Positions 30,882-39,730 of a stretch of 64,000 nt of DNA are shown piece after piece. The notes beneath the pieces were generated by a model that was not told where the DNA came from, ran no database searches, and worked only from the letters and a program-made list of their open reading frames with translations. The translations under genes were made by a program, and so were the position numbers. The first letter of the stretch is position 1; each line of letters opens with the position of its first letter. The DNA lies in NCBI GenBank assembly GCA_020723185.1, contig DYJI01000006.1, positions 1-64,000 of the forward strand. Direction: 5' to 3'. Source of the stretch: Sideroxydans lithotrophicus. GTDB taxonomy: Bacteria; Pseudomonadota; Gammaproteobacteria; Burkholderiales; Gallionellaceae.

Positions 30882-31033
30882 GACGACTCCAGGCACATAT
30901 TGAACAAAGGGACTGCGCCTATTATACCGATCCGGCGATCGCCTGCCCTCGGTGCCGAGACCGCGCTGGCTGCACGATCGGGCGCAATCGGCCGTAGCCA
31001 TCCGGCGCAATGGCACCCCCCTCGGAAGGGTCA

Positions 31034-31062
31034 TTGACACATACCCCGCATGGCCATAGAGT
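31034..31062 (+). promoter_or_regulatory. Promoter of shared-leader copy 1
   Basis: TTGACA, exactly 17 bases and TAGAGT, followed after 8 bases by ACTTGCAGA. Copies 2 and 3 use the same -35 sequence, the same spacer length and nearly the same distance to the leader, so transcription probably starts at or next to the ACTTGCAGA box. Confidence 0.65.
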
Positions 31063-31070
31063 CTTGCCCG

Positions 31071-31210
31071 ACTTGCAGATTCGCTGAGCTCACACCCCAC
31101 CGCACGCACGCTGGAGGAAGGTCAACGAGATTCCCGGACAGGAGGCTGGCGCAAGCATGTATCCCCGCAGAGGGATTAAGCCGGTTTAAGTCCGCACCAA
31201 GGGGAATCCA
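31071..31210 (+). ncRNA. Shared 5' leader RNA, copy 1 (upstream of CHASE-PAS-GGDEF gene)
   Basis: About 140 bases from ACTTGCAGA to the start codon. In order: an imperfect hairpin with loop CACGCA (31098-31113), an ATTCCC segment (31130-31135), a conserved ACAGGAGG (31138-31145) inside a short CCGG/CTGG stem, GCGCAAG, a hairpin ATCCC/GGGAT (31161-31176), then the RBS region with GGGAAT (31202-31207). The last is perfectly complementary to ATTCCC, so the leader could fold back on the RBS. Copies 2 and 3 change sequence in the third hairpin and the RBS pairing but keep them paired. It also holds a short frame (31157-31189) after the AGGAGG, not conserved in the other copies. Confidence 0.6.
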
Positions 31211-33601
31211 GTGTCAGTGAAGCAGATTGAAAGATCCGCCATGCACCTCGTGGCTGATGTGAAGCAATTCTGCAAGTACGCCTTTGCGGTCATGCTTGCG
31301 GGTATGGCTATCACCCTGTATTTCAGCCTCGACGCGAAGATCGATGCCGACAAGATCGCGCACGAACGTTTTGCCGCAGATGCCGACGAGGTCCGCATGC
31401 ACCTGTTGGGCATGCTCGCCTCGCACGAACAGGTTTTGCTGGGGGCCGCCGCTTTCTTCGACGCCTCCGCCAGCGTGACACGCGATGAATGGAAGCGTTA
31501 TGCCCATCGCATACAGCTGAACGATCACTTCAAGAGTGTGCAGGGAATAGGCTATGCCGAGTGGATACCCCGCGACCGGCTCGCCGCGCACGTCGCATCG
31601 GTGCGCAGCGAAGGGTTCCCGGACTACGAAGTGTGGCCCAAGCAGGATCTTGAGCACTACACCGCCATCGTCTATCTTGAGCCGTTCACCGGGCGCAACC
31701 TGCGCGCCTTCGGCTACAACATGTATTCCGAGCCCACCCGCCGCGTCGCGATGGAACGCGCGCGCGACACGGACGCCGCAGCACTTTCCGGAAAAGTGAC
31801 GCTCGTGCAGGAGACCGCCGAGGATGTCCAGGCGGGCACACTGATGTATCTCCCGCTGTACCGGAAAGGGATGCCACACGAGACCGTGGCCCAGCGTCGT
31901 GCCGCGCTGTATGGCTGGGTGTACAGCCCGTTCCGCATGAGGGACATGGTCGAGAACGCCCTCGGTGCCGCCAAACCGGAAGACAAAGAGACGCCACTCC
32001 AGATCAGTATCTATGATGGACGGGAGCTGGACAGCAGTTCCCTGCTCTATTCCAATCTGACCATGCGAAACAATGCGACACCGCCCGTCACCATCCAGCA
32101 GCATCTGGAATTCGGCGGACATGAATGGACGCTGATGACCGAGCACCACACCCTGAAGGGAGCCGGGCTGGACTACAGCAAGGCCAAGACGATCTTCTTC
32201 AGCGGCACGCTGACCAGTATCCTGCTCTACTTCCTGATCACCGCGCTCACCCAGTCGCGTGCAGCCTTGCACAAGGCAAAGGTCGCCGTCGCAGAATTGC
32301 GCAAGAGCGAAGAGAACCTGCGCGTACTGGCCAGGAACGAATCCGTGCTGATCTGGCTCGCCGGCCCGGACAAGCAATGCACCTATTTCAACCAGGTCTG
32401 GCTGGACTTCACCGGCCGCACAGTGGAACAGGAACTGGGATCGGGATGGGCGGAAGGCATCCACCCGGATGACCGGGAGAACTGTCTGCATACCTACATC
32501 CTGGCCTTCGATGCCCGGCGCGAATTCACGCTCGAATATCGCCTGCGACATCACAGCGGCACATACCGCTGGATCGTCGACCACGGCGTACCCCGCTTCG
32601 ACAGCAAGGGCGATTTCCTCGGCTACATCGGTAGCGGCGTGGACATCACCGACCGCAAGGAATCCGACGCTCAGCTCCAGCTCTCCATGTTCGCCATGGA
32701 CAAGGCATTCGATGCCATCTACTGGCTGGACAAGGACGGTCGCATCCGCTACGTCAACAACCAGGGTTGCGAGACGCTGGGCTACAGCAAGGAAGAGCTG
32801 ATGCGACTCTCCATACCGGACCTGGATCCTGACTTCCCCCAGGACCAATGGAAGCTGCACTGGGAAGCGCTAAAAAAAGACAGATCCCAGCTGTTCGAGA
32901 CCCGTCACCGGCGCAAGGACGGCAGCATCATCCCGGTGGAAGTCTCGGCCAATCATGTGCAATTGGGAGAACTGGAATACAACATCGCCTTCTGCCGCGA
33001 CATCAGCAAACGCAAGGAGATCGAACAGGAGATCTACTCCCTCGCATTCTTCGATCCGCTCACTCGCCTGCCCAACCGGCGCATGCTGAGCGACCGGCTC
33101 TCCAAATCGCTCGCCAACAGCAAACGCAACGACGCCTACGGCGCACTGCTGTTCCTCGACCTGGATAATTTCAAACCCATCAACGACAAGTGCGGCCACG
33201 AGGTCGGCGACCAGTTGCTGATCGAGGTCGCACGCCGCCTCACCGCCACGGTACGCGAGATCGACACGGTCGCCCGTTTCGGCGGCGATGAGTTCGTGGT
33301 CATACTCGGCGACCAGTCCAGCAGCCGGGAAGAGATGTACAAGCAAGCCAAAGTGGTCGCGGAAAAGATCGTCGCCACGCTGGCAAGGCCCTATCAGCTG
33401 ACCCGGTTCAGGGACAACAAGAATATCGCCGTCACGCATGAATGCACCACCAGCATCGGCATCACCCTGTTCGACGGCAAGCAGGACAACCAGTATGACA
33501 TCCTGAGCCACGGCGACATCGCCATGTATAACGCCAAAGAAGCGGGGCGCAACCGCGTCTCGCTGTACACCCCGCCGGAACCGGCCGGGCAGGCCCATTG
33601 A
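31211..33601 (+). CDS. Membrane diguanylate cyclase, CHASE-PAS-PAS-GGDEF
   Basis: A 796-residue inner-membrane signalling enzyme. TM1 is near residues 25-42, a periplasmic CHASE sensor domain fills about 70-310, TM2 is near 328-346, two PAS domains follow (about 370-490 and 495-615), and the GGDEF domain ends the protein. The active-site motif is RFGGDEF near residue 690, with the inhibitory RxxD (REID) five residues before it, so it should make cyclic di-GMP with product inhibition. The GTG at 31211 has GGGGAA upstream; a second GTG at 31217 is possible. Its stop overlaps the -35 of leader copy 2. Confidence 0.9.
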   Translation: MSVKQIERSAMHLVADVKQFCKYAFAVMLAGMAITLYFSLDAKIDADKIAHERFAADADEVRMHLLGMLASHEQVLLGAAAFFDASASVTRDEWKRYAHRIQLNDHFKSVQGIGYAEWIPRDRLAAHVASVRSEGFPDYEVWPKQDLEHYTAIVYLEPFTGRNLRAFGYNMYSEPTRRVAMERARDTDAAALSGKVTLVQETAEDVQAGTLMYLPLYRKGMPHETVAQRRAALYGWVYSPFRMRDMVENALGAAKPEDKETPLQISIYDGRELDSSSLLYSNLTMRNNATPPVTIQQHLEFGGHEWTLMTEHHTLKGAGLDYSKAKTIFFSGTLTSILLYFLITALTQSRAALHKAKVAVAELRKSEENLRVLARNESVLIWLAGPDKQCTYFNQVWLDFTGRTVEQELGSGWAEGIHPDDRENCLHTYILAFDARREFTLEYRLRHHSGTYRWIVDHGVPRFDSKGDFLGYIGSGVDITDRKESDAQLQLSMFAMDKAFDAIYWLDKDGRIRYVNNQGCETLGYSKEELMRLSIPDLDPDFPQDQWKLHWEALKKDRSQLFETRHRRKDGSIIPVEVSANHVQLGELEYNIAFCRDISKRKEIEQEIYSLAFFDPLTRLPNRRMLSDRLSKSLANSKRNDAYGALLFLDLDNFKPINDKCGHEVGDQLLIEVARRLTATVREIDTVARFGGDEFVVILGDQSSSREEMYKQAKVVAEKIVATLARPYQLTRFRDNKNIAVTHECTTSIGITLFDGKQDNQYDILSHGDIAMYNAKEAGRNRVSLYTPPEPAGQAH

Positions 33602-33626
33602 CAGAGATCGGGCTTACCCATACATT
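33598..33626 (+). promoter_or_regulatory. Promoter of shared-leader copy 2
   Basis: TTGACA, exactly 17 bases and TACATT, then 8 bases to ACTTGCAGA. The TTGACA is built into the stop codon region of the diguanylate cyclase gene. Confidence 0.65.
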
Positions 33627-33634
33627 CGCAGCCG

Positions 33635-33782
33635 ACTTGCAGACCGTCGAGGTACATCGCACCGCATGCACGGTGAGGGGCCGAAGACGGGATCCCCGGA
33701 ACAGGAGGCTGGCGCAAGACACGGTTCCTGTACCACCGGGAACAGCCGGCATCAGACTTGTTCGTTCAGGGGAGAAAGAACA
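33635..33782 (+). ncRNA. Shared 5' leader RNA, copy 2 (upstream of unknown secreted protein)
   Basis: About 148 bases. Hairpin 1 is CACCG/CGGTG with loop CATGCA (33660-33675). ATCCCC (33692-33697) precedes CCGG-AACAGGAGG-CTGG (ACAGGAGG at 33701-33708), then GCGCAAGAC. Hairpin 3 is GTTCC/GGAAC (33724-33743). The RBS AGGGGAG (33768-33774) contains GGGGA, complementary to TCCCC at 33693-33697. The block ACTTGTTCG before the RBS is shared with copy 3. I do not recognise a known riboswitch signature in it. Confidence 0.6.
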
Positions 33783-34673
33783 ATGAAGTACCTGTTTGCA
33801 GTCACCACATTGCTGATCATGGCATGGCACGCCCATGCGCTGGACCAGTCCGACAGCGGCAACTACGCCGTCGTCCACCGCGACGGCCACATCACCGACT
33901 TCACCTTCTTCGTCTCGCATAGCGACGGCCAATGGAACGTCGAGCAACTGCAACCGGACGGCAGCTGGGCCAGCGCCACCTGTTCGCGCAACTGCATGTT
34001 GCAGGAATCCTCGCCGCACGACCTTGCCACCTTCTTCTCCGGGAACGAACTGAGCGAGACGCACCCGACATGCGTGCATAACCAGGCCTTCGCATTCTGC
34101 CGTCAGGATTCGATCCTCCACCCCGGTGAGAAGGAATACACCCTGGTTGCGCTGATGATGTCCCGCCCCATCCAGATCCAGCTGAAAAAGATCGAGACCG
34201 GCTGGAAGGACACGCAAGGCCGGATGCAACCGGACTCCGATGCGAGAAAAGCGCAGAACGGCTTCGGCGGCTGGCTGCTGGTCACTGCGGACGATGACTG
34301 GAAGACAAAATGGGAGACACAGACGGATGCCACCCCCCGTTTCAGCATGGCCGCAACCGTCGCCAAAGGCAAACCCGTCTACGTGCTCACCTTCTTCAGC
34401 AATCCCAAACTCGATGAACAAGGCGGTGCCGACATCAGCTGCGACATCGACCTGCGCAAGCCAGACGGCAGCGCCTCGTTCCAGCAGACCGACGCCACCT
34501 GCTTCAAGGGTGCGCTCAAAGGCCAGCCGAACTACCTCTACCTCTCCGCCCCCGTGATCAGATTCATCGGTGAGCAAGAAGACCCCTACGGCGCATGGCA
34601 GATCAGCATCACGCTCAAGGACAACGTCGGGCGCACCAATCTGCCCCTCAAGACTTCGTTCATCCTGCAGTGA
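33783..34673 (+). CDS. Unknown secreted protein behind shared leader 2
   Basis: A 296-residue protein with a signal peptide (MKYLFAVTTLLIMAWHAHA, cleaved before LDQS). There seem to be two beta-rich parts: residues 25-140 with four cysteines (ATCSRNC, THPTC, AFCRQD) probably disulfide-bonded, and 150-296 with two more (ISCDIDL, ATCFKG). The second part reads like an extracellular beta-sandwich domain. ATG 33783 has AGGGGAG eight bases upstream. I do not recognise the family. It is followed by a KTSC-domain gene on the same strand. Confidence 0.75.
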   Translation: MKYLFAVTTLLIMAWHAHALDQSDSGNYAVVHRDGHITDFTFFVSHSDGQWNVEQLQPDGSWASATCSRNCMLQESSPHDLATFFSGNELSETHPTCVHNQAFAFCRQDSILHPGEKEYTLVALMMSRPIQIQLKKIETGWKDTQGRMQPDSDARKAQNGFGGWLLVTADDDWKTKWETQTDATPRFSMAATVAKGKPVYVLTFFSNPKLDEQGGADISCDIDLRKPDGSASFQQTDATCFKGALKGQPNYLYLSAPVIRFIGEQEDPYGAWQISITLKDNVGRTNLPLKTSFILQ

Positions 34674-34694
34674 ACCGTTGAAGGATATATCCGC

Positions 34695-34961
34695 GTGGAA
34701 ATGAAGAAGATCGACTCAGGGAGACTGCGCGCCATCGGCTACGACGCGCGCGCACGCATCTTGCAAGTGCAACTGGACAACGGCGATGCATTGCAATACC
34801 TTGGAGTCGGAGAGGACCTCTGGCGCAGACTCGCCAATTCCGGCGCTGCGTGGAGCTTCTTCCGCGACAACATCGAGGAAGAATTCACCGTCAGGAAGGT
34901 CTCTGCCCATGCCCCTGCAGGCAAGAACCCGCTGGATGAACTGTTCGGCCCGGCAGACTGA
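34695..34961 (+). CDS. KTSC domain protein
   Basis: An 88-residue protein that starts at GTG 34695 (GAAGGA upstream; an in-frame ATG two codons later has poorer spacing). The sequence IDSGRLRAIGYDARARILQVQLDNGDALQYLGV matches the beta-hairpin pattern of the KTSC domain, which in some proteins is linked to RNA or nucleic acid functions but has no settled role. It is probably cotranscribed with the secreted protein 21 bases upstream. Confidence 0.78.
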   Translation: MEMKKIDSGRLRAIGYDARARILQVQLDNGDALQYLGVGEDLWRRLANSGAAWSFFRDNIEEEFTVRKVSAHAPAGKNPLDELFGPAD

Positions 34962-35009
34962 ACACCGGAACATCGTTCCCGGCACTTTGAATAACAAGAG
35001 GAGGAGACC

Positions 35010-35168
35010 ATGAGCCAACCAGACCGCGATCCCATCATCCTCAGCGAAGAAGGCGAGCACGACGGCAAGACCGTCATCCTCCAGCGCTGCCCCAAGCACG
35101 GCATCGTGTTCCTGCCCAGCGAAGGCTGCCCGGAATGCGCCAAGGAAAAAGAAGCTGCCGGTTCTTAG
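35010..35168 (+). CDS. Small zinc-ribbon-like protein, 52 residues
   Basis: A short frame with a near-ideal ribosome binding site (GAGGAGGAGA ending 2 bases before the ATG region). The translation has RCPKHG near residue 28 and GCPECAKE near 40, giving Cys-x2-His and Cys-x2-Cys pairs suited to one zinc ion. The N-terminal half is acidic. It lies between the KTSC and rhodanese genes on the same strand. Function is unknown. Confidence 0.7.
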   Translation: MSQPDRDPIILSEEGEHDGKTVILQRCPKHGIVFLPSEGCPECAKEKEAAGS

Positions 35169-35197
35169 TCGAATATCCGATTCACAATCCAAAAAAC

Positions 35198-35773
35198 ATG
35201 ACCGAATACAACATCACCGTGGGACTCCCCACGGCAGACGTGCTGCACAAAGGGATAGCCGTCACCATTCGCCGCGAGCAGGATCCTGCGGCAACGATCC
35301 GTGCCGAATACGCCCCCACCGCCCGCCCCTGCCCGCCCTACTGCATCCAGCCGATGCGCTTGGCAGCAGGCATCGAGACGTTCGGTGAACTGGAAGTGTT
35401 GGACTACCTGCAGCGCATCGCAGCGGGTGACACGCAATACATGGTGATCGATTCGCGCACCCCGGACTGGTATGAGAAAGTCACCATCCCCGGTGCGGTG
35501 AACGTGCCCTACGCGCAGAACATGGCAGGTCATGCGACCGACCTGCCCGGCGTGAAAAAGACTTTAGCGGAATTGTTCGGCGCGAAAGAGAACAACGGCA
35601 GCTACGACTTCAGCAAGGCCCGCACCCTCGCCATCTTCTGCAACGGCCCTTGGTGCGGCCAGACACCGAACTATATCCGCACGCTGCTCTCGCTCGGCTA
35701 TCCGGCAGAAAGACTGAAGTGGTATCGCGGCGGCATGCAGGACTGGTGCGCGCTCGGTCTCACCACCGCCTGA
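35198..35773 (+). CDS. Rhodanese-like domain protein
   Basis: A 191-residue protein with a rhodanese domain in its C-terminal two-thirds (YMVIDSRTPDWYEKVTIPGAVNVPY near residue 85, active-site loop FCNGPWCGQT near 146-155, then GYPAERLKWYRGGMQDW). The active-site cysteine is in CNGPWC, so persulfide transfer is plausible. ATG 35198 begins the conserved part; SD is weak. The first 65 residues (GLPTADVLHKGIAVTIRREQ) are an extra domain I cannot name. No signal peptide is present. Confidence 0.85.
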   Translation: MTEYNITVGLPTADVLHKGIAVTIRREQDPAATIRAEYAPTARPCPPYCIQPMRLAAGIETFGELEVLDYLQRIAAGDTQYMVIDSRTPDWYEKVTIPGAVNVPYAQNMAGHATDLPGVKKTLAELFGAKENNGSYDFSKARTLAIFCNGPWCGQTPNYIRTLLSLGYPAERLKWYRGGMQDWCALGLTTA

Positions 35774-35780
35774 GCCAAAC

Positions 35781-36314
35781 TCATCCCCACTCGATCTCGA
35801 CCGAGCTGCAGTTGCCCAGTTTCTGCAGGCAAGTCGTTTCCTGTGTCGCACTCAACAACGTCAGCACCGCGATGATCGGATTCTCGTGCGACACCACCAG
35901 CACCGTCCCCTGCGGATGCCGCAAGGCCGCCTCGTCGAGGAAACTCTTCAGCCGCGCCATCTGTTCGATGAACGACTCGCCCTTGGGCGGTTTGATGTGC
36001 AGATAATCGGGACGCACCAGATCGTTGAACCTATCCACATGCTGCCCGTCCATGCCGGAGATGCGTTCGTTCAAACGCGCATCCACCACCGGATGCAAGG
36101 CATGGTGCCGCAGCAGGATGTCCATCGTCTGCTGCGCACGAGGGAACTCGGACACGTAAGCATGCGTGAACGGCATCCCTCTCAAGCGTTCGGCCGCCGC
36201 CTCAGCCTGCTGCCTGCCGCGCGCAGTGAGATTCACGACTCGCTCGGGATCGTCATTGATCTCGTGGAGCACATTGCCTTCACTCTCACCGTGGCGCACC
36301 AGAACGACCTTCAT
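35781..36314 (-). CDS. Histidine phosphatase family protein (phosphoglycerate-mutase-like)
   Basis: A 177-residue protein with the phosphohistidine motif VLVRHGES (Arg7-His8) and the second catalytic His in VVSHENP near residue 143. The substrate is not evident; it is shorter than true phosphoglycerate mutases and closer to SixA/CobC-like phosphatases. It lies downstream of the methyltransferase on the same strand, 16 bases apart, and converges with the rhodanese gene. Confidence 0.85.
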   Translation of the reverse strand: MKVVLVRHGESEGNVLHEINDDPERVVNLTARGRQQAEAAAERLRGMPFTHAYVSEFPRAQQTMDILLRHHALHPVVDARLNERISGMDGQHVDRFNDLVRPDYLHIKPPKGESFIEQMARLKSFLDEAALRHPQGTVLVVSHENPIIAVLTLLSATQETTCLQKLGNCSSVEIEWG

Positions 36315-36330
36315 CTGCTTCCCCCGACCA

Positions 36331-36999
36331 TCACTTCAACATCAGCAGAAAGATGTTCTCCTGCATCCTCGTCACACCGCGCGCCTTGAAGCGCGGTTCG
36401 CGTTCCAGAATATCCGCCTGCTCCAGAAAACGGATCTCCGCATAAGGCGCATAGAGCGCCCGCACCTCCGCCTCAGACACCGCGAACGGCGGCCCCGGCA
36501 TCTGCTCCTGCGGATAATCGAACGTCACCAGCAACACCTGCGAGCCGGGAGGCAATATCTCCACCAGGTGCCGCGCATAGCGCTCGCGCATCTCCGGCGG
36601 CAGCGCCACCAGCGAAGCGCGGTCATATACCGCACGCACTTGCGCCATATCCTCTTTGCGCAGATCGAAGAAATCCCCGCACAGGATGCGGATGCCCTCC
36701 GCCTCGCAGCACTCGAACTTCTCGCTGTGCGTATGCGCAGGCGACTTGCCCTGCTCCGAGAAAAAGTCGCGCACCGCGATGGCACTCAGCTCTACCCCCA
36801 GCACCGTATGTCCCTGTTCGCGCAGCCACACCATATCCAGACTCTTGCCGCACAAAGGCACAAATATCTCACCACCCGCCTCGCCGCCCTGCGCGACTTT
36901 CAGCTCAGGCCAATACTGCAACAGGTACGGATTGATATCGTTCTGATGAAACCCGATCTCCGCCCGCTCCCATCGCTCCAGCCAGAATTCCTTTTTCAT
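36331..36999 (-). CDS. tpm: Thiopurine S-methyltransferase family protein
   Basis: A 222-residue SAM-dependent methyltransferase. The family pattern is clear: KEFWLERWERAEIGFHQND at the start, VPLCGKSLDMVWL as the SAM-binding motif near residue 48, VYDRASLVALPP near 125 and GPPFAVS near 170. Bacterial members methylate thiopurines, selenite or tellurite compounds. I chose ATG 36999 because GAGGTG lies just upstream; a GTG two codons earlier is possible. Confidence 0.88.
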   Translation of the reverse strand: MKKEFWLERWERAEIGFHQNDINPYLLQYWPELKVAQGGEAGGEIFVPLCGKSLDMVWLREQGHTVLGVELSAIAVRDFFSEQGKSPAHTHSEKFECCEAEGIRILCGDFFDLRKEDMAQVRAVYDRASLVALPPEMRERYARHLVEILPPGSQVLLVTFDYPQEQMPGPPFAVSEAEVRALYAPYAEIRFLEQADILEREPRFKARGVTRMQENIFLLMLK

Positions 37000-37126
37000 A
37001 TGCACACCTCACAATATTCATCCATTCGCCCTGAGTAGCACGCATAGCGCGCGTATCGAAGGGCCGCACATTGCTCGCACCCAGATTTTACCAAACCACC
37101 CTGCCACCACACCCCTGATCCCATCA

Positions 37127-37155
37127 TTGACACTCACCGCCACCTCCCCTACAGT
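37127..37155 (+). promoter_or_regulatory. Promoter of shared-leader copy 3
   Basis: TTGACA, exactly 17 bases and TACAGT, then 7 bases to ACTTGCAGA. The TCATTGACAC context around the -35 is the same 10 bases as in copy 1. Confidence 0.65.
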
Positions 37156-37162
37156 TCAGCCC

Positions 37163-37311
37163 ACTTGCAGATCCGCTCAACGCACATCGCCCCGCACGTA
37201 CGGCGCGAGACACGAAGCGGAATCCCCGGAACAGGAGGCCGACGCAAGACGAGATTCCCGCGCTGCCGGGAACAACGTCGGAATATAACTTGTTCGCAAA
37301 AGGGGAAAACA
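37163..37311 (+). ncRNA. Shared 5' leader RNA, copy 3 (upstream of nuclease-like gene)
   Basis: About 149 bases. Hairpin 1 is CCG/CGG with loop CACGTA (37192-37203), extended by three more pairs beyond one mismatch. ATCCCC (37222-37227) precedes CGG-AACAGGAGG-CCG (ACAGGAGG at 37231-37238) and CGCAAGAC. Hairpin 3 is TTCCCG/CGGGAA (37255-37272). AACTTGTTCG and the RBS AAGGGGAAA follow; GGGGA is complementary to TCCCC at 37223-37227. This GC-rich leader belongs to the host-type composition while the genes behind it are A+T-rich. Confidence 0.6.
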
Positions 37312-38118
37312 ATGGCTGCAATTCCAAAGAAAGTTTCTGAGCGTCTGATAAACGGCATCAAAAAGTACCAGCCGATTCTTGCTGCTGCTAAATCTCGCGA
37401 TGTGGGAGAAGCTGATACCGTCACCATCATCAAGGACATGCTTCAAGACATCTTCGGATACGACAAATATTCCGAACTGACTTCCGAATATGCCATCCGT
37501 GGCACCTACTGTGACCTTGCCACCAAGATCAACGGTGTCCTGCAAACCCTCATCGAAGTGAAAGCCATCGGCCTGGATTTGAAAGACCAGCACGTCAAAC
37601 AAGCAGTCGACTACGCCGCCAATCAGGGCGTTGATTGGGTACTGCTCACCAACGGCATCTGCTGGCGCGTCTATCACCTAACCTTCGCCAAGCCAATATC
37701 AAGCGAGCTGATCGTTGATATTGATTTCACAACACTCAACTCTCGCAGCCTGCATGACCTAGAACTGCTCTACTTGTGGTGCAAAGAAGGATGGCAGCGT
37801 TCCGTCCTTGGCGAATATCACACCCAGCAACAAGCCCTTTCAAAATTCTTTATCGGGGCCATGCTGCAAACAGATACCGTTCTGGAAGTGGTCCGCCGCG
37901 AGCTACGCCGCGTCTCACCAGACGTGAAGATTGACATTGAGCAGATCAAAGCCGTACTTGTGAATGACGTGATCAAGCGCGACGTGATTGAAGGTGAAAA
38001 AGCTGAAGAAGCTCGAAATAAAGTCTCAAAATCTGCTTCAAAGTCCCTGCGTTCAATTGCAACAAAAAAACGTCCACATGAATCTGCGCCTTCAGTACAG
38101 CAGAGCGGTGTTGTATAG
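37312..38118 (+). CDS. HSDR_N-type PD-(D/E)xK nuclease-like protein, candidate defence gene
   Basis: A 268-residue cytoplasmic protein. Residues 45-160 resemble the N-terminal nuclease domain of type I restriction HsdR subunits: GTYCDLA (Asp), then TLIEVKAIG (Glu-x-Lys), then DQHVKQAVDYA with the motif-QxxxY helper residues, and WVLLTNGICWRVYHL. The PD-(D/E)xK pattern is therefore intact, but there is no helicase part and no HsdM/HsdS gene. The C-terminal 110 residues are helical and basic. ATG 37312 follows AGGGGAAAA. Its base composition is less GC-rich than surrounding genes. It is followed by the DUF262 gene after a hairpin. Confidence 0.72.
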   Translation: MAAIPKKVSERLINGIKKYQPILAAAKSRDVGEADTVTIIKDMLQDIFGYDKYSELTSEYAIRGTYCDLATKINGVLQTLIEVKAIGLDLKDQHVKQAVDYAANQGVDWVLLTNGICWRVYHLTFAKPISSELIVDIDFTTLNSRSLHDLELLYLWCKEGWQRSVLGEYHTQQQALSKFFIGAMLQTDTVLEVVRRELRRVSPDVKIDIEQIKAVLVNDVIKRDVIEGEKAEEARNKVSKSASKSLRSIATKKRPHESAPSVQQSGVV

Positions 38119-38161: not shown

Positions 38162-38245
38162 GGTATGTTTCAATCAAAAACTGGCCGACGAACCGTGTGA
38201 TGCAAACCCGAAATATTGCGCTCAACAACCGACAAGGAGTTTAAC

Positions 38246-39730
38246 TTGGCACTAATATCTAGAGGCATGTCAATTCAAGAGGCCTATCGCATCTATCGGG
38301 ATGGCAATTTGATTGTCAACCGCCAATACCAAAGAAAGCTTGTCTGGACCATAGACGAGAAAGCACGACTTGTTGACAGCATTTTGAAGCAATATCCAAT
38401 TCCATTGATTTTGTTGGCCAGAAGCAGCGAGGGAAATCACAAGCTTGAAATTATTGATGGTATGCAGCGATTAAATGCAATTTTTGGCTTCATCGAAAAT
38501 GAATATGCATTTGATGGAAATCAATTTGATGTTGACCAGTTCGCCAGAGCTAAACAAGCAGCCGAAGAAGGGGCTTTTGTTAAAGCAGATGCTAATGCAA
38601 TAAAGTTGGATAAAAAGTCATGTGCTGATTTTCTGGACTATCAACTTGCAATTACTCAGTTCGATGCCAACAACCCCACCCACGTTGTAAGCGTCTTTGG
38701 TCGAATCAACTCTGGTGGCAGACAATTAAGCGATCAAGAGCGTCGACAAGCAGGCGTAATTAATCCATTTGCAAATTTAGTACGCTCATTGGCGAGTGAA
38801 CTCCGTGGCGATGCATCAAAAGAAACACTGCTTCTCAGTGAGATGCCTGCGATTAGCATTGAGTCACAAAAGTCTTCTCAAAAATACGGATTAATTGCCC
38901 AAGATATTTTTTGGTGCAAACAAGGAATTATCCGAGTGAAGGACTTAATCTCAAGCGAAGATGAAGAAATCGTTGCTGATTTGCTTGCTTCGGTGCTGCT
39001 GGGAAAGCCGCTAGCCATAAGTCGCGAAACACTTGATGAATTGTATGATCCAGCGTCCACACTTAGTCAAAGTGTTAGCAACTCATTGACCGCGTATACC
39101 CAAGACAAGCTCCGACTGGATATCACAGGAACCTTCTCCGTCATAAAAGAATTAATTTCAGCATATAACAACGCACCAAACTTCCTCCGCGACCTAGTAC
39201 GACCTGGAAAGAACCCCATTAAGACTCCCTTCTATTCTATATTTATGGCGTTTTACGAACTCGTCGTAAAACACCAATTAAGCCCCAATAATCCAGCTGC
39301 GCTTTTCAAAGCATTAAAGAATTCCGGCGAACGCCTTGTGTACAGCGCCCATTACGCAAAAGCTGAAGATCGAGAAAACAACATCAAAGTTATACGTGGC
39401 CTTATCGAGGCTTTTTTCGTAAAGCAGGAACCACCAATCATTACTCATGGTGCCAGTCTAGCTTTGGATTTGGAAAACTCACTTCGCAGGTCTAAAACAG
39501 AAAGTGCAAATTACGAACTCAAGCAGGGAATCCTAGACTTGGGAAATTCTCGTTCCATTGATTCCAATCTTTTGGATCGTATCAATGAAACAATTTGCGC
39601 TATTGCCAACCTCGGGCCTAAATCTAAAGGCTTTTTAACTATAGGTGTTGCTGACAAAAAAGCAGACGCAGATCGCATAGCATTGCTCGATGCCGTTTCT
39701 CAAAAGATGTGTCCGGTAGGTACATCGTAG
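38246..39730 (+). CDS. DUF262 protein with (broken) C-terminal AlbA_2 domain, candidate defence gene
   Basis: A cytoplasmic protein of 494 residues up to the stop. I chose TTG 38246 because AAGGAG lies six bases upstream and the conserved region starts there. Residues 5-90 are the DUF262 (ParB/Srx-like) domain with NRQYQRKLVW and IIDGMQRL, the motifs of GmrS and SspE-type restriction proteins; VFGRINSGGRQLSDQE follows near residue 155. There is no DUF1524 HNH nuclease after it. The last 80 residues are the first half of an AlbA_2 (Schlafen-like) domain that stops abruptly; its second half continues in another frame at 39709. The gene is clearly A+T-rich relative to the chromosome. Confidence 0.72.
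   Translation: MALISRGMSIQEAYRIYRDGNLIVNRQYQRKLVWTIDEKARLVDSILKQYPIPLILLARSSEGNHKLEIIDGMQRLNAIFGFIENEYAFDGNQFDVDQFARAKQAAEEGAFVKADANAIKLDKKSCADFLDYQLAITQFDANNPTHVVSVFGRINSGGRQLSDQERRQAGVINPFANLVRSLASELRGDASKETLLLSEMPAISIESQKSSQKYGLIAQDIFWCKQGIIRVKDLISSEDEEIVADLLASVLLGKPLAISRETLDELYDPASTLSQSVSNSLTAYTQDKLRLDITGTFSVIKELISAYNNAPNFLRDLVRPGKNPIKTPFYSIFMAFYELVVKHQLSPNNPAALFKALKNSGERLVYSAHYAKAEDRENNIKVIRGLIEAFFVKQEPPIITHGASLALDLENSLRRSKTESANYELKQGILDLGNSRSIDSNLLDRINETICAIANLGPKSKGFLTIGVADKKADADRIALLDAVSQKMCPVGTS

Follow-up and report, generated by a model that had tools for sequence, protein, structure and literature searches.

A recurrent promoter and structured leader in front of unrelated genes of Gallionellaceae: a candidate cis-regulatory RNA

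What kind of element stands, in recognisably the same form, in front of three unrelated genes of one genome? The question is raised by a stretch of 64,000 nucleotides from Sideroxydans lithotrophicus (contig DYJI01000006.1; hereafter the window), in which a promoter and a leader occur together three times between positions 31,034 and 37,311 (modules 1 to 3). We propose that the module is a cis-regulatory RNA that acts on translation in response to some signal, and put the probability of this reading at roughly 0.6. The initial annotation of the window had already suggested that these unrelated genes are preceded by a structured cis-regulatory RNA, a suggestion that is supported by copies in relatives, by covariation and by the lack of a corresponding Rfam family. 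The pseudoknot, the covering of the ribosome-binding site (RBS), the restriction to one family and the exchange of downstream genes, as described below, go beyond it.

The three modules and their relatives

Each module begins with TTGACA, followed after 17 bases by a -10 element (TAGAGT, TACATT and TACAGT in modules 1, 2 and 3), after a further 8, 8 and 7 bases by ACTTGCAGA, and then by a leader of 140, 148 and 149 bases, counted from the A of ACTTGCAGA to the base preceding the start codon (GTG at 31211, ATG at 33783 and ATG at 37312). This arrangement can be read directly in the sequence, as the initial annotation had it, and the common blocks and the third hairpin of differing yet pairing sequence that it listed are present in all three copies. 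The TTGACA of module 2 includes the stop codon of the preceding gene. The copies can be aligned across promoter and leader, and their likeness is far beyond chance. A fourth module is found in the same genome 95 kb further on (G000:C7:132397-132530).

A BLAST search with copy 3 yields a match in 31 of 61 genomes, its own genome counted, and all but one of these belong to the same genus. A first covariance model (R1) was derived from an alignment of 22 leaders (A2), which are those left of 33 first-gathered modules after exclusion of six with inserts or decay, of copy 1, and of four near-duplicate or divergent sequences. R1 gives 133 matches in 30 of the 34 genomes of the genus (1 to 11 per genome), and none of the 21 good-quality genomes is without one. 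In the family as a whole it matches 71 of 158 genomes, distributed over 7 of 15 genera. The copies in relatives on which the initial annotation had made its suggestion depend are thus abundant. Copy 1 is recovered by R1 at 70.0 bits (E = 1.5e-13), not being among its source sequences; copies 2 and 3, both part of R1, score 115.1 and 150.4 bits. Chance or local duplication is therefore rejected, given the BLAST spread, the genus-wide matches and the recovery of copy 1.

Across the order, R1 matches 6 of 349 genomes and a second model (R2, from 105 matches) 7 of 399, every one of them in the family Gallionellaceae. Across the class (R2, 1 of 274 genomes) and the phylum (R1, 1 of 249) the sole match is the window's own genome. 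The genomes drawn for these wider searches overlap in part, and stricter filters were applied, at which weak matches are lost. Within the genomes searched, the module is restricted to one family. Copy 3 is without match among 72,556 records of plasmids and 50,697 of phages, as is one 20-base word in viral contigs, and a phage or plasmid origin is rejected.

The comparison with Rfam that had been recommended yields no family for these leaders. The only match of the window to Rfam 15 at the gathering threshold is a tRNA at 1395-1467. Within the region 31000-37400, one chance match to an internal ribosome entry site, inside a gene (34071-34163), appears at E values up to 10, and for 20 further loci (E up to 5) the 23 matches obtained stay under the gathering threshold and touch no module. 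A known Rfam family is rejected as the identity of the module on these grounds. A search of an open-access library for regulatory RNAs of Gallionella, Sideroxydans or Gallionellaceae returned no paper that was relevant, as judged by title.

Fold, promoter and ribosome-binding site

The hairpins noted earlier extend to a fold of helices P2 to P7 together with a pseudoknot, P1. P1 pairs CUUGC, which would be the first transcribed bases, with GCAAG. P2 joins UCCGC and GCGGA, P2b joins GC and GC, and P3 is a long hairpin with the loop CAYGYA. P4 (GCUGGC with GCCAGC) and P5, the third hairpin of the initial annotation, are enclosed by P6 (GAACA with UGUUC) and P7 (UCCCC with GGGGA), which are crossed by P1. 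The segments CTTGC, GGAACAGGAGG, CGCAAG and GGGGA, single-stranded at first sight, mostly pair with one another.

Folded singly, copies 1 to 3 differ little or not at all from shuffled sequences (z of +0.41, -1.63 and -2.08), and the case for a structure therefore rests on comparison. Besides A2, two alignments were used: A3, with 132 distinct rows, and A4, with 47 rows from genera other than the window's, drawn from the other-genus matches listed, none of them part of R1. Together the sequences compared are 181 matches (134 and 47), a few of which are fragments of one module; one match of the genus, at G001:C11, was left out. The proposed pairs are formed in 92.0% of the cells of A2, against 33-45% after sliding the structure, and in 90.1% and 92.6% of the cells of A3 and A4. 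Both sides are changed in 316 cells of A3 and 108 cells of A4, compared with 81.6 and 31.5 in shuffles. None of 500 shuffles attains the values of A2, A3 or A4, and slid structures reach 33-50%. Changes on both sides affect 34 of the 42 pairs in A3 and 27 of 42 in A4. P1 is absent from the model, yet is paired in 94.4% (A3) and 96.0% (A4) of cells, with two compensatory swaps in A3, one CATGC/GCATG and one CCTGC/GCAGG.

A tree-aware test was applied to the best 105 of the 134 A3 rows (104 distinct) and to 46 of the 47 A4 rows, as was a comparison of G-U with A-C combinations. Its null redistributes substitutions on the tree, with branches weighted by mapped substitutions (150 and 300 simulations). 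In the two-set form, confined to the proposed pairs, 3 of 42 pairs (A3) and 5 of 42 (A4) pass at E < 0.05, located in P2, P3, P5 and P6. Among the 25 top-ranked column pairs, 12 (A3) and 7 (A4) belong to the structure, which accounts for 42 of 10,296 pairs. G-U combinations outnumber A-C combinations in P4 (87 vs 25) and P6 (43 vs 20), as is expected for an RNA transcribed from the strand of the module. The 5' leader thus has a conserved secondary structure with compensatory change, and the covariation in larger alignments that the initial annotation had also called for is present in the compensatory changes and the two-set test.

The promoter is conserved together with the RNA. Of the 181 matches, 19 score below 60 bits; among the remaining 162, a promoter of the module type is found at 148, with TTGACA as the -35 element in 140. 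The spacing between -35 and -10, given as exactly 17 by the initial annotation, is correct for the window; across the family it is mostly 18 (113 of 148) and 17 in the other 35. Since the -10 element ends 6-8 bases before ACTTGC across the promoter-bearing matches, the transcript probably starts at or next to ACTTGC, which would make P1 the very 5' end. At the other end of the leader, the GGGG of the RBS is predicted to be unpaired with a mean probability of 0.073, compared with 0.275 in shuffled leaders, and the value is lower in 113 of 125 copies (matches of at least 70 bits and at most 160 nucleotides, with GGGG near the end). For module 3 the predicted probability is 0.002, against 0.271 after shuffling. 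As a prediction, the structure can hence occlude the RBS, with GGGG in P7.

The mechanism that we propose is as follows. From a sigma-70-type promoter, a transcript would begin at or next to ACUUGC and continue into the conserved leader of about 140 nucleotides, which would control translation of the gene downstream. The CUUGC at the 5' end would fold back onto GCAAG to form the P1 pseudoknot, P2 and P3 would form the long hairpin with the CAYGYA loop, and P6 and P7 would enclose the P4/P5 stem, so that the GGGG Shine-Dalgarno sequence is held in a helix with UCCCC. The conserved core, namely the P1 pseudoknot, the loop and internal loop of P2/P3 and the P4 junction, may bind the signal, and binding would decide whether P7 opens. 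A small molecule would be the most likely signal, a guess prompted by the pseudoknot and by bases that are conserved although unpaired; otherwise a protein may serve. The module would then be a regulon device specific to the family, placed before signalling, secreted and accessory genes, including genes resembling phage defence. Whatever its signal, it adds a well-supported RNA class with a testable fold in the poorly studied iron-oxidising bacteria.

Several observations weigh against this reading. Fitting A3 and A4 to the model gives an advantage to the helices that it contains (P1, not being in the model, is exempt). When all column pairs are tested, a single pair in A3 and none in A4 reaches E < 0.05, and the two top-ranked pairs of A4 lie outside the proposed structure. 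P1 and most of P7 are nearly invariant and, because they barely vary, show little covariation. An excess of G-U is absent from P2 (29 vs 34 A-C) and P3 (43 vs 85 A-C). Sequestration is unclear in two copies of the window: the GGGG of module 2 has a predicted unpaired probability of 0.466 (0.605 shuffled), and that of module 1 is no less accessible than in shuffles (0.234 vs 0.204). Finally, only 80 of the 181 matches have a frame of 60 or more codons directly behind GGGG; in 97 the nearest frame of at least 80 codons lies further on, within 450 nucleotides, and four have none. In over half of the copies, then, GGGG does not mark where a long gene starts, and control of the downstream gene is something that we infer.

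We note that a hairpin resembling repetitive extragenic palindromes (REP), with the tail GGCGTACCCCTTGCGGGTG, occurs in some modules at roughly one position of the leader, with AACAG on one side and CTGGCGCAAG on the other (L137:5946-6150, L124:7209-7410, L072:1027-1233, L152:1108-1305, L080:3362-3565 and L162:1010-1211). Within the compared stretches, 13 of 28 copies of this tail (at most 3 mismatches) fall within modules.

Genes behind the modules and their exchange

Downstream frames come from mechanical calling, which will be in error for some of them. They give 177 proteins in 80 clusters. The largest consists of 39 methyltransferase/ORF6N proteins, many of them shortened (for example at L082:1042, L111:702, L158:1091, L159:3043 and L093:1098); the gene at L159:3043 resembles a mosaic of methyltransferase and ORF6N. 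The second cluster groups 29 PAS/GGDEF/histidine-kinase proteins, with a GGDEF motif in 17. Further kinds are secreted proteins, DUF3857-transglutaminase proteins, DUF6765 proteins, lipases and many single ones. Tallies with padloc and Pfam cover 76 of the 177 proteins; two of these 76 match Gabija GajA (best E = 6.4e-216). Other defence-like proteins behind modules, likewise named by family match, are an OLD-like ATPase, SIR2-STAND, SLATT, patatin and HNH proteins.

The genes of the window are listed in Table 1 together with their modules. The secreted-looking protein behind module 2 is one of seven in its cluster among the proteins behind modules. The HSDR_N_2 score of the gene behind module 3 is just below the curated cut-off of 25. 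This gene is followed at 38216-39730 by a gene for a GmrSD_N (DUF262) protein, and the two may form a defence operon.

Table 1. Positions of the modules and of the genes behind them in the window
Feature	Position	Strand	Details	Basis
Module 1 promoter	31034..31062	+	TTGACA 31034-31039, 17 bases, TAGAGT 31057-31062	Sequence
Module 1 structured leader, P1-P7	31071..31207	+	P1 strands 31072-31076 (5') and 31151-31155 (3')	R1
Module 1 GGGG of RBS	31201..31204	+	3' strand of predicted P7, with CCC around 31131-31135	Sequence, fold
Gene behind module 1: CHASE-PAS-PAS-GGDEF protein (diguanylate cyclase)	31211..33601	+	CHASE 1.1e-66, GGDEF 6.5e-42	Pfam
Module 2 promoter	33598..33626	+	TTGACA 33598-33603, TACATT 33621-33626	Sequence
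Module 2 structured leader	33635..33776	+	P1 33636-33640 / 33714-33718; UCCCC 33693-33697 opposite GGGG 33769-33772	
Gene behind module 2: secreted-looking protein	33783..34673	+	Without Pfam match	
Module 3 promoter	37127..37155	+	TTGACA 37127-37132, TACAGT 37150-37155	Sequence
Module 3 structured leader	37163..37308	+	P1 37164-37168 / 37244-37248; UCCCC 37223-37227 opposite GGGG 37302-37305	
Gene behind module 3: HSDR_N_2-like (restriction nuclease-like) protein	37312..38118	+	HSDR_N_2 4.8e-5, 23.9 bits	

The variety of these genes raises the strongest rival explanation, a mobile promoter: a portable cassette of promoter and leader would spread and persist by expressing any gene placed behind it, recombination between copies would exchange the genes, and the fold would provide insulation or constant expression rather than sensing. 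Such mobile promoters of prokaryotes were reportedly described by Nijveen, Matus-Garcia and van Passel. We consider this explanation possible and clearly less probable than a regulatory RNA. Promoter and leader do travel together, the copies being mostly unalike, by eye, to the left of ATTGACA. All 44 pairs of modules that adjoin in the stretches compared have the same orientation, with a median spacing of 3.1 kb; the count leaves out pairs less than 60 nucleotides apart as well as wider-spaced modules, such as an oppositely oriented pair 18 kb apart on G025:C36.

Two loci bear on exchange. At the first, next to a TPMT-like core gene, 12 modules in 12 genomes are divergent from this gene, and the genes behind them fall into ten clusters, with a restriction-like gene common to three genomes (in six cases the next frame was taken, not the one at GGGG). 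Some modules of this locus that are 84-89% identical precede different genes; for example, the modules of L121 and L102 are 87% identical and those of L117 and L104 89%, and the genes differ in both pairs. At the second, 11 TerB-DnaJ loci (one weak and one double match dropped) carry about six kinds of gene. Here the modules before diguanylate cyclase genes are alike among themselves, as are those before DUF6765 genes, and hence module and gene appear to move together. To judge from these sequences, both patterns probably exist, exchange of the gene behind a module and joint movement of module and gene.

Against a mobile promoter, terminal repeats, target duplications or a recombinase did not come to light, no systematic search for them having been made. 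A recombination test, in which the 5' part of the module should follow the locus and the 3' part the gene, gives single mosaic cases and no overall excess; module copies without a common neighbour are on average 70% alike in the 5' part and 65% in the 3' part. Among 24 genomes of the family outside the listed R1 matches, the TPMT-like gene is matched in 18. None of the 18 has a clean empty site beside it (L219 covers 96 bases only), and the adjoining sequence is unrelated except in L212; four weak module matches of 18-27 nucleotides are taken as chance. In L212 (G024) a decayed module, not picked up by the model, lies upstream of the TPMT-like gene and in front of another gene whose start resembles, by eye, that of the gene behind L101:1064. 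A bare promoter would also have no need of the fold, RBS included, that the compensatory changes keep.

A regulatory RNA and exchange of the genes that it controls may also be combined. The module would then be a portable socket, in which a family-specific, aptamer-like RNA keeps its chromosomal site together with its promoter while accessory genes, including those for phage defence, are exchanged directly behind the RBS. We regard this extension of the regulatory reading as tentative, with the odds against it. If it is true, newly arrived genes would fall at once under one common signal sensed by RNA, and bacteria would have one way to place foreign genes, defence genes too, under existing control.

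Remaining alternatives and known systems

Control by a leader peptide is improbable. A short frame behind GGGG (M-I/T-A-S/R-L-T-E) would be sensed by attenuation or coupling, and modules of a long type (for example L080:3362, L163:3116 and L076:3372) do have about 70 further conserved nucleotides 3' of GGGG, in which a start codon is followed by a short peptide that is similar among them. The same stretch can form a hairpin around GATAARTCG, as seen by eye, and it is absent from the three copies of the window. Differences by codon position are mild (254, 282 and 325 over 58 pairs among 14 sequences, which were selected with the peptide pattern), and coding in this 3' extension is accordingly rated as weak.

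We think it very unlikely that the leader is repressed by a protein of the CsrA/RsmE kind, in which case the GGA of ACAGGAG and that of GGGGA would serve as a pair of sites. In its favour, ACAGGATGG or ACAGGAGG occurs in many copies, and both are close to the CsrA consensus. However, the upstream GGA is not kept throughout the copies (GTGAGG), and CsrA (PF02599) is matched in none of the 34 genomes of the genus, compared with 3 of 14 control genomes including E. coli. CsrA is thus rejected for this set, in which some genomes are incomplete; another RNA-binding protein may act instead.

Recombination sites of a chromosomal integron (attC), with cassettes in one orientation, would account for the same-orientation clusters and are equally hard to credit: an integron integrase above the cut-off is found in 15 of the 34 genomes, the window's own included, but module-rich genomes lack one (G020 with 11 matches, G016 and G025 with 6 each), and where both occur the listed modules are either on a different contig from the integrase or 150 kb or more away from it. 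Presence of the module is therefore not tied to the integrase, and attC is rejected as the driver. The integrase of the window's own genome (G000:C12:128942-129880, 399.9 bits, above the curated cut-off) does not share a contig with the modules.

Among known systems, the integron cassette array shares with the module a succession of unrelated accessory genes that all point the same way, with a structured element belonging to each. The module differs in its conserved promoter and RBS, which attC sites are not known to have, and its copies are independent of IntI.

A second comparison is with the cyclic di-GMP riboswitch (c-di-GMP-I, GEMM, RF01051). GGDEF proteins stand behind some modules (17 of 177 by motif), and the short words CACGCA and ACGCAA recall this riboswitch, the architecture of which differs from that of the module. 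It has no match in the window region (E up to 10) or in the 20 further loci (E up to 5). As the GGDEF count is without background comparison, c-di-GMP as the signal is a lead only.

Mobile promoters, to which PMC9208149 refers, are promoter sequences that are homologous although the genes behind them are unrelated. The module shares this property; it differs in that the unit includes an RNA of 140 nucleotides with compensatory changes and in that no insertion-sequence source was seen.

A further likeness is to orphan riboswitch candidates, the subject of a 2020 review (PMC7266159) and of genome-wide searches (PMC8632094, PMC11109978). Such candidates are reported likewise to combine a structured 5' leader, a pseudoknot, covariation and a predicted cover of the RBS, with no known ligand. 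Unlike them, the module is confined to one family, has a promoter that is conserved together with the RNA, occurs in up to 11 matches per genome and precedes genes without an evident common pathway. Taken as an RNA, the module belongs to a known kind, within which it forms a class of its own, and the conserved promoter and the exchange of genes make it a variant.

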